A stretch of DNA of 64,000 bases. Origin: Nanobdellota archaeon (GTDB lineage Archaea; Nanobdellota; Nanobdellia; Woesearchaeales; UBA9642). The notes under the pieces are model-generated. The model had not been told where the DNA came from and did no database searches. It saw only the letters and a program-made list of their open reading frames with translations. The translations under genes and the position numbers were made by a program. The stretch is taken from contig JAKAKR010000004.1 of NCBI GenBank assembly GCA_021813435.1, positions 56,972-120,971 on the forward strand, written 5' to 3'. Below, one piece after another: positions 26,686 through 60,873 of the stretch (positions within the stretch are counted from its first letter, which is position 1; each line of letters opens with the position of its first letter).

Positions 26686-27255
26686 ATGGCAACCATCCCA
26701 CTAACCAAGGAACTTGCGCAATACATCAAGGATGAGGATGCAAAGCGCGAGGAGATCATCACGCAATCGCGCGTCATCCTCAAAGAGAGCAAGTCTGCAA
26801 TCTACAGCATCCATCGTCGGGAATTTGTAGAGGCAAAAAACCTCTTGGAGAGCGCTCAACGCGCCATTGCAGCACTCCGCAAAATTATTGCAGCCCACCC
26901 GCACCTCCAGTATAATCTGGATAATGCGCTGGAAGAATATGCTGAGGCAAAATGCTATTACAGTGTCGAAGTTGATAAGAAGATTCCTTCGTTCCAGGAT
27001 ATTGATGTCGATCCCATCAATTATCTTGCAGCGCTCTCTGATCTCACGGGCGAGCTTGGACGCCGGGCAGTCATCGAGGCAACTGCAAAAAACACTGCGC
27101 GCGTAGAAGAATTGCGCGATATCATCGAAGAGGTCCATGGACTGCTGGTAAAGATAGATCTGCGTAATGGCGAACTTCGGAAAAAGAGCGATGCCATCAA
27201 GTGGAACCTGCAGAAAGTCGAAGAACTCCTGTATGATTTGAAACGAAAATCTTGA
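26686..27255 (+). CDS. Archaeal translin-family protein
   Basis: About 189 residues, all helical, of the translin family: nucleic-acid-binding ring-forming proteins, with trax-like members having nuclease activity. EDAKREEIITQSRVILKESK, then RREFVEAKNLLESAQ, then VDPINYLAALSDLTGELGRRA match the family layout. The ORF track adds a hydrophobic 31-residue N terminus from 26593. ATG 26686 is preferred because TTTATAA (26657-26663) lies 26 bases upstream and would place the transcription start at this ATG, and because the extension contains the promoter itself. The protein then starts in the conserved region. Confidence 0.88.
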   Translation: MATIPLTKELAQYIKDEDAKREEIITQSRVILKESKSAIYSIHRREFVEAKNLLESAQRAIAALRKIIAAHPHLQYNLDNALEEYAEAKCYYSVEVDKKIPSFQDIDVDPINYLAALSDLTGELGRRAVIEATAKNTARVEELRDIIEEVHGLLVKIDLRNGELRKKSDAIKWNLQKVEELLYDLKRKS

Positions 27256-27260
27256 AGGTA

Positions 27261-27424
27261 ACATTACTGTCACTATGTGAGCATCTTAAGACTTCACATC
27301 AAGAAATTTCTACAGGATCGTCAAAAATGGAATTTTTGAGCGTGCTCAGAAATTTTCAATTTCTGACATGCAAGTGGTAGAAATTTCCTTTAATGGATCA
27401 TCAAAATGCGAACGACAGTAATGT
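27261..27424. repeat. 164-bp element of nested perfect inverted repeats
   Basis: The outer ends ACATTACTGTC (27261-27271) and GACAGTAATGT (27414-27424) are an exact 11-bp inverted repeat. Inside are ATGTGA/TCACAT (27275-27299), an 11-bp pair GAAATTTCTAC/GTAGAAATTTC (27303-27313, 27377-27387), and within that two hairpins: TCAAAAAT-gga-ATTTTTGA (27321-27339) and TCAGAAATT-ttc-AATTTCTGA (27346-27366). No ORF. It lies between the translin stop and the MFS promoter. No clear flanking target duplication. Could be a structured RNA or a MITE-like element. Confidence 0.7.
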
Positions 27425-27448: not shown

Positions 27449-28654
27449 ATGAATGTTCAAAAACGATTGGAACGAAACATCGTATTGCAGTATATCATCG
27501 CTTCCCTGATGTGGATGCGGTTCTATCTGCCGGTCATCGCATTATTCTACATCGCTTCGCAGGTCAGTGTTGCAGAATTTGCAATCATTCTTGCAGTATT
27601 CTCTGCAGTGATACTCGTCTTTGAGATCCCGTCAGGAGTCATCGCGGATTTTTTAGGAAAACGATCAACACTTCTTATTTCACGATTCCTCTACCTTGTC
27701 GAATTATATCTTGTCGCATTCCATAATGGGTTCTGGATTTTTCTTGTCGCAAAGATCATCAGCGGGATTGCAGTAAGCCTCACTTCAGGAACAGACAGTG
27801 CGCTCCTCTTTGACACGCTCAAGCGATTGGGACGGGAATCCGAGCACAAGAAGATATCAGGACGTGTATACACGATCTCTGCAATCTCCATGGCATGCAT
27901 GTTCATCGTCGGTGCATACCTTTTCTCGCTCAGCCCAAAACTTCCTGCTATTGTCTCAATCCCGTTTGTCGGCGCAGGATTCATACTCACATTCTTTATT
28001 GTTGAACCGACGTCAATCGTCAAAGAATTTACCTTCAGGAATTCCTGGAGACATTTCAAGGACGGATTGCGATTGTTCTGGATGAATCCCTACCTGAAAT
28101 ATCTCGCGTTCTATTCCCTGATCATCGGCACTGCATTCGAGATAGCACTCTCACTCTCCTCGATCTATTATGCCTGGGTGCTCATCCCGGTGTCGCTCAT
28201 TGGACTACTTGCAAGCATTGGATCGCTCTTTACTGCATTTGCGTCTGCCAAAGCGCATCGCATTGAAGAACGCTTAGGAGAATTCCGCTCGATGATCCTT
28301 ATTATGGGCGTTGTGCTGCTGGGAATTTTCCTCTTATCATTTGGCGTTCCGTACTGGGGCGCCGCACTCTTCATGCTGCTGCCTTTTATCCAGGGATTCT
28401 ACACTGTGCTGCTCAATGATTATACCAATAGGCATGTCGGCGATTCACACCGCGTCACTATGCTCTCCATCAATAACATGTTTGATAATATTGGTGTTGC
28501 ACTGCTCTTTCCGATCATTGGAGCAATCACCAAGGCATACTCATTGCGCGTTTCATTCATTGTCCTTGCAAGTATCATTGCAGTCTATCTTATCGTGCTG
28601 CTGATCATATTCTTGCCTGTCATACGCGTATTGCATGATAAAAAGAGAATTTGA
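27449..28654 (+). CDS. MFS transporter
   Basis: 401 residues with about twelve hydrophobic helices. The loop between helices 2 and 3 has EIPSGVIADFLGKRSTLLIS, the major facilitator signature (GxxxDxxGR/K). The central loop holds a charged segment SIVKEFTFRNSWRHFKDGLR. Substrate not predictable; the fold is that of drug/sugar/metabolite exporters. It begins 25 bases after the inverted-repeat element and is followed by strong T-tracts. Confidence 0.88.
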   Translation: MNVQKRLERNIVLQYIIASLMWMRFYLPVIALFYIASQVSVAEFAIILAVFSAVILVFEIPSGVIADFLGKRSTLLISRFLYLVELYLVAFHNGFWIFLVAKIISGIAVSLTSGTDSALLFDTLKRLGRESEHKKISGRVYTISAISMACMFIVGAYLFSLSPKLPAIVSIPFVGAGFILTFFIVEPTSIVKEFTFRNSWRHFKDGLRLFWMNPYLKYLAFYSLIIGTAFEIALSLSSIYYAWVLIPVSLIGLLASIGSLFTAFASAKAHRIEERLGEFRSMILIMGVVLLGIFLLSFGVPYWGAALFMLLPFIQGFYTVLLNDYTNRHVGDSHRVTMLSINNMFDNIGVALLFPIIGAITKAYSLRVSFIVLASIIAVYLIVLLIIFLPVIRVLHDKKRI

Positions 28655-60696: not shown

Positions 60697-60873
60697 GGAA
60701 AATCAGGGATGTGTTCAAAAAAGTACGCCAATGCCAGTATGCGAGCATCTTAAAGATAACTCTTATAGGCTGACATAAGAGATGACAAGAGTAAATGTCA
60801 GCAATCCCCACACAATACGAATGTGAGCGGCATGGCGTAACAGAATGTTTTGAACACACTTGGAAAATCAGGA
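60697..60873. mobile_element. MITE-like element with 12-bp target duplication and nested stems
   Basis: A 12-bp direct repeat, TGGAAAATCAGG, lies at 60697-60708 and 60862-60873. Just inside are inverted repeats TGTGTTCAAAA (60711-60721) and TTTTGAACACA (60849-60859). A second stem, TACGCCaATGCC with GGCATGGCGTA, and a third, GCTGACA/TGTCAGC, lie further in, so the whole would fold as one branched hairpin. No ORF. It sits just upstream of the Sec61-beta core promoter and after the histidine kinase gene. Confidence 0.72.

Follow-up and report, generated by a model that had tools for sequence, protein, structure and literature searches.

The element at positions 27261-27424 of the window (the whole 64,000-nt stretch of archaeal DNA that was analysed) is best explained as two nested non-coding elements: one copy of a palindromic DNA repeat that occurs many times and has helices P1, P2 and P3, and a smaller mobile element that has invaded its loop and consists of two head-to-head hairpins. 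We give this reading a probability of roughly 0.7. Host repeat and insert both belong to dispersed multi-copy families whose hairpins are kept through compensatory changes. Members of the insert family have precise ends, generate no target duplication and lie beside a short preferred sequence, and they have repeatedly entered unpaired parts of the host repeat.

A host repeat interrupted by a 50-bp insert

R3, a covariance model of the host repeat built from 25 copies including that of the window, matches the element end to end on the minus strand (89.7 bits), so that the boundaries of the element correspond to a real repeat unit. The parts of the element and a second host copy in the window are as follows.

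27261-27424, minus strand: host repeat copy (R3 match), a P1-P2-P3 unit of about 114 nt lengthened by the 50-bp insert
27261-27271, plus strand: P1 outer arm, perfect 11-bp pairing with 27414-27424; 10 of the 11 P1 pairs double-changed
27414-27424, plus strand: partner arm of P1, with the same pairing and covariation evidence
27281-27285, plus strand: P2 arm GCATC, paired with AATGC; GC-to-AU and other double changes
27405-27409, plus strand: P2 partner arm AATGC, likewise with double changes
27303-27313, plus strand: P3 arm, perfect 11-bp pairing with 27377-27387; covariation
27377-27387, plus strand: partner arm of P3, with covariation
27314-27318, minus strand: half of the conserved P3 loop, ATCCT, separated from the other half by the insert
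27369-27376, minus strand: other half of the P3 loop, CACTTGCA; undivided in L006
27319-27368, plus strand: two-hairpin mobile insert of 50 bp without target duplication; exact empty site at L006, family found in relatives
27321-27339, plus strand: insert hairpin 1, 8-bp stem TCAAAAAT/ATTTTTGA (27321-27328/27332-27339); covariation
27346-27366, plus strand: insert hairpin 2, 9-bp stem TCAGAAATT/AATTTCTGA (27346-27354/27358-27366); covariation
27275-27299, plus strand: 6-bp hairpin ATGTGA/TCACAT (27275-27280/27294-27299), outside the conserved structure
60725-60838, minus strand: second, weaker and diverged host copy (R3 E = 0.006) with the variant P3 loop CTGACATTTACTCTTG..ATGTCAG, resembling L283:1793, L290 and L291

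The predicted RNA fold of the element has an energy of -49.8 kcal/mol (z = -4.4), and only 1 of 200 shuffled sequences folded as well, which places the element beyond chance. The first-pass annotation was therefore right to single it out as compact and unlikely to be accidental. Its description as one element of five nested inverted repeats needs amending: all stems are present where it had located them, but they are divided between two repeats, one nested within the other, and the pair of 6 bp, which is read straight off the sequence, is absent from homologous copies, the closest ones included.

A BLAST search within the genome yielded three further places. At L006 (copy C15), the surrounding sequence lacks the middle 50 bases, and the junction of GAAATTTCTACAGGAT with TGCAAGTGGTAGAAATTTC aligns without a gap. 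Positions 27319-27368 are thus a separate unit, and for this insert the lack of a target duplication noted earlier is correct. The R1 model, in which the window copy was used, gives this segment as its best match in the genome.

The element takes up most of the 193-bp spacer that separates the end of a 220-aa ORF, at 27255, from an MFS-type ORF that starts with its ATG at 27449 and runs to 28654. In genome G001, the MFS-type gene is missing beside the upstream ORF, and an aspartyl-tRNA synthetase-like ORF is still nearby, an arrangement that places the spacer at a gene-turnover boundary. We looked for an empty allele of the locus by synteny within the genus. There is no orthologous spacer in these relatives because the MFS gene is not next to the upstream ORF there.

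Two dispersed families of hairpin repeats

A model based on three host copies (window, C15 and C1) found 31 places in the same genome and one in the congener G002; four further genomes of the genus and family gave none. The count of about 31 comes from model and pattern searches of a draft genome, with rough model calibration. With the refined R3 model, the host repeat was detected in 16 of the 287 genomes of the order, i.e. in 15 besides its own. The genome probably belongs to this Woesearchaeales-type order, since the element has the same coordinates in relative G055 and in record JAGVXP01. Its copies read as one family despite nearly wholly different stems. P1 (11 bp) forms the ends of the element, P2 is of the GCAT/ATGC type, and P3 (11 bp) is closed by the loop CAYTTGCAATYCT, which occurs in 23 exact copies in the genome (reversed control, 0). 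Variants of the loop are always CAC..CCT or CAT..TCT; the two variable positions always change together (C/C or T/T, never mixed), although no base pair joins them. The centre of the loop, TTGCAA, is self-complementary.

The covariation analysis proposed in the first-pass annotation, run on homologous copies of the insert and the host, including those of other genomes, revealed conserved structures with double changes. Over 25 host copies, 90.8% of the stem cells are paired and 163 are double-changed, vs 50 in shuffles and at most 27 in a slide control. RNAalifold, without structure input, recovered the same helices and two more covarying pairs. The 26 host copies from other genomes, none of which had served to build the model, have 158 double-changed cells vs 50.8 in shuffles, in an alignment that had been fitted to the structure. 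Roughly half the host copies are enclosed in an extra perfect outer palindrome, P0, with arms of at least 9 bp in 20 of 45 copies vs 14 of 1800 cases in a random control, which, like the others used here, was a simple one. The P0 arms are perfect, yet their sequences are unrelated between copies.

Genome G147 has nine identical host copies at contig ends. Further contig ends that were sampled hinted at collapsed short repeats and not at a large autonomous element. A different short palindrome, a repeat with CCTTTAGG/CCTAAAGG hairpins, was seen at the ends L348, L350, L355, L365, L376 and L384, and many contigs of G147 end where it has collapsed the assembly.

The insert family has the layout TGTCA-hairpin-TGAGCATGCTCA-hairpin-TGACA. 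The 113 unique copies measure about 50 to 200 bp and give, once oriented, the consensus TGTCARRAAC-hairpin-TGAGCATGCTCA-hairpin-ATTTCTGACA with TWTYA just outside; the hairpin feet are TGTCA and TGAGCA. Dimers with the hairpins in inverted, head-to-head order contain 269 of the 320 half-units. In the stems, 98.5% of cells are paired and 35 are double-changed, vs 8.4 in shuffles and at most 7 when the columns were slid by 1-3.

In 14 of 60 relatives, there are dispersed repeats that match the two hairpins of the window insert. When GTDB genomes were scanned for the core pattern, at least 115 stretches matched, and nearly all of the 80 matches listed are from DPANN archaea (Woesearchaeota, Pacearchaeota, Nanoarchaeota and one Aenigmarchaeota). 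Three of those listed are non-DPANN, namely L100, L118 and L124; the latter two sit in homologous ORFs. L100:421-522 looks like a genuine copy of the family on a contig labelled Aminicenantes, a bacterium, and reflects either transfer or a mis-binned contig. A broader core pattern was found in 62 of the 287 genomes of the order, with up to 41 copies in one genome (reversed control, 0), and a covariance model built on 26 minimal copies matched in 155 of them, with rough E-values. The exact core pattern had no match in IMG/VR, and the phage and plasmid searches gave none either.

No consistent target duplication was found across 113 elements of the insert family, and several copies have gapless empty sites without duplication. 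The filled and empty pairs are the window and L006, L135 and L179 vs L146, L113 vs its own second locus, L126 vs L113, and L129 vs L114/L132; the G002 host copy L262, compared with the family consensus, is filled without duplication as well. Each empty site could in principle reflect precise loss of an insert instead. To the right of the insert, T, T and A are found at 65, 69 and 58 of 77 sites, respectively (binomial p < 1e-12). This TWTYA motif, 5'-TRAWA on the opposite strand, is exact at 37 of the 77 sites and is a preference only; the window site, TGCAA, is a poor fit. Some empty sites already contain TATGA or TAATA, so the motif is part of the target.

The unpaired parts of host copies were invaded repeatedly, in a loop or a bulge (L263, L265, L288, L262 and L286). 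The P3 loop is the insertion site in the window and C1 copies, and a small 3' bulge that in L286 and in L262, which is from another species. At L288:1020-1186, the P3 loop holds a different two-hairpin unit of 53 bp, TTGTGGAAATC..TCTCGATG, two bases away from the insertion point used in the window. A sister hairpin repeat with an insert has itself spread in another genome, to more than 10 near-identical copies. Sister repeats of this type, TCATAAAAATC..GATTTTTAGGATGCC..TGCATGA, contain the insert centrally and were amplified together with it, mainly in NC_groundwater_1524 (composites at L049, L050, L058, L064, L072, L076, L154 and L155). Insertion inside hairpins accounts for a minority of the sites of the insert family: 6 of 104 lie in loops of perfect hairpins whose stems have at least 9 bp, vs 12 of 3120 random positions, the latter taken from intergenic and genic DNA alike. 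Folding of the joined flanks gave no significant general preference for hairpins, the enrichment of long perfect ones notwithstanding. In one Woesearchaeota genome, copies of 54 or 108 nt, stop-free in the frame used, lie in frame in gatA (L088:3106-3159), gatD (L104:3882-3989) and gatE (L104:5804-5857); that of GatD sits between two asparaginase domains.

DNA or RNA, and the mode of movement

The first-pass annotation had predicted a branched RNA. That the P1-P2-P3 repeats function as structured RNAs, or as UTR elements, and are maintained by selection on the RNA, with an incidental insert, appears improbable to us. The very strong covariation of several helices inside and outside the genome would suit such RNAs, as would the conserved unpaired letters (loop CACTTGCAATCCT and a TC/TC internal loop) and the intergenic position of all 29 host copies examined. 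However, selection at the RNA level should favour G-U over A-C, and in three alignments the stems show G-T and A-C mismatches equally often (9 and 8, 6 and 6, 4 and 4). The acceptor stems of 20 control tRNAs gave 6 and 0, in a small sample and with a choice of stem that slightly favours G-T. Searches of Rfam returned nothing above the gathering cut-off, the genes around the host copies have mixed orientations, and the drop from about 31 copies to one in the congener and none in the other four genomes is the pattern of a mobile repeat. Taken together, the equal mismatches, genome-specific copy numbers and clean insertions favour palindromes that act as DNA. Judging from these sequence features, a DNA structure thus appears a better fit than the proposed RNA.

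Palindromes might also be perfected without any selection, by fold-back template switching during replication. We regard this as a possible but clearly less probable account, and it is compatible with mobility of the elements. It agrees with the roughly 90% pairing kept among strongly diverged paralogues, with the absence of a G-T preference and with the P0 arms, which are perfect but entirely different from copy to copy. It leaves the conserved letters of the loop and internal loop unexplained, and the clean insertion of the small element requires an enzyme that cuts and joins. Fold-back conversion may nevertheless add to the perfect arms. It is most improbable that a DDE transposase recognizing TGTCA terminal repeats moves both families as ordinary MITEs: the terminal inverted repeats of the small element do start with TG and end with CA, but several empty sites lack a target duplication, and the internal palindrome and hairpins kept by covariation are unnecessary for DDE transposition.

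We prefer the reading of a mobile DNA palindrome nested in another. The anatomy and insertion style of the small element point to single-strand transposition in trans. Movement would proceed via a folded single DNA strand, the hairpin feet of which would be recognized by an enzyme acting in trans, like TnpA of IS200/IS605 or RAYT for REPs. No recurring neighbour genes were found beside copies of the insert family, nor any gene flanked by a pair of half-elements.

Y1 transposase genes (PF01797) are present in 101 of the 287 genomes of the order. No clear insert-family ends were detected within about 1.5 kb on each side of 42 Y1 loci, 20 of the 34 high-copy genomes have no detectable Y1 gene, and the association between Y1 and the insert is weak at best (odds ratio 1.1-2.4), vanishing for the strongest carriers. 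Y1 is not supported as a linked or co-occurring mobilizer, and neither is IS110, found in 17 of the 287 genomes. We would go further only with reserve. It is a rather doubtful generalization that DPANN archaea harbour a hitherto undescribed type of mobile DNA that depends on its structure, with hairpin repeats that are copied and pasted into the single-stranded loops of other such repeats, as well as in frame into essential genes, through an enzyme outside the known Y1, IS110 and DDE transposases.

Whereas the short mobile palindromes of bacteria (REP/RAYT) have been studied well, those of archaea are poorly known. Two archaeal families are now defined, with models, copy numbers, an insertion rule and empty sites. 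Mobile DNA palindromes can mimic the covariation of RNAs, a trap for covariation-based RNA discovery.

Comparison with known mobile palindromes

Our literature search, mostly outside subscription papers, found no earlier description of either family. The insert family resembles REP dimers, REPINs and BIMEs by its two 8-9-bp head-to-head hairpins, high copy numbers, in-frame intragenic copies and location of some copies within longer palindromes, and CGTC REPs also lack a dedicated transposase (PMC3733652, PMC3116915). Unlike REPs, it is archaeal (DPANN) and tagged by TGTC, with CGTC in few copies, such as that of the window; it has a fixed palindromic centre, TGAGCATGCTCA, clean empty sites and full-length copies that reach about 200 bp, with extra arms. 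It shares the two inverted hairpins of RAYT-type REPs and REPINs (269 of 320 half-units), but not the GTAG (or GTGG) at the hairpin foot or a RAYT gene flanked by the same repeats (42 Y1 loci; 20 of 34 high-copy genomes). The CGTC REPs of bacteria form head-head dimers of hairpins and have no transposase; some lie in frame in genes, and some within longer palindromes (PMC3733652). Minimal copies of the insert family have the same 8-9-bp stems, 4-5-bp loops, head-head dimers and in-frame copies, also without a transposase; their consensus is TGTC and GCA instead of a CGTC end and a CCA-like 3-bp tail, and longer copies carry arms in addition to this plan.

PATEs and IS200/IS605 ends have subterminal hairpins, no target duplication and a short fixed sequence beside the insertion, like the insert family (PMC3119063, PMC6006769), which, unlike them, has no linked tnpA/tnpB and no matching ends at the 42 Y1 loci examined. 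Rickettsia palindromic elements also lie in frame in protein genes; they are bacterial, whereas the insert family is mostly intergenic (PMC3733652). DDE MITEs differ by their target-site duplication.

The SMR-A elements of Haloquadratum walsbyi have terminal inverted repeats, produce no target duplication and insert into PATE/IS605 palindromes, and their mobilization was described as enigmatic (PMC3119063). They resemble the present families in being short and archaeal, with the same kind of ends and a habit of inserting into the palindromes of other repeats, a likeness by description rather than by the HqIRS42/43/55 sequences; SMR-A copies are about 110 bp, nearly identical and from one halophile species, whereas the present family has variable stems and occurs in many DPANN genomes (PMC3119063). 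As the small family is found in over half of the genomes sampled from the order and has no recognized transposase, the enigma of SMR mobilization becomes a testable question. By analogy, the present families probably work like SMRs and CGTC REPs, but they belong to DPANN archaea and have sequence tags of their own.
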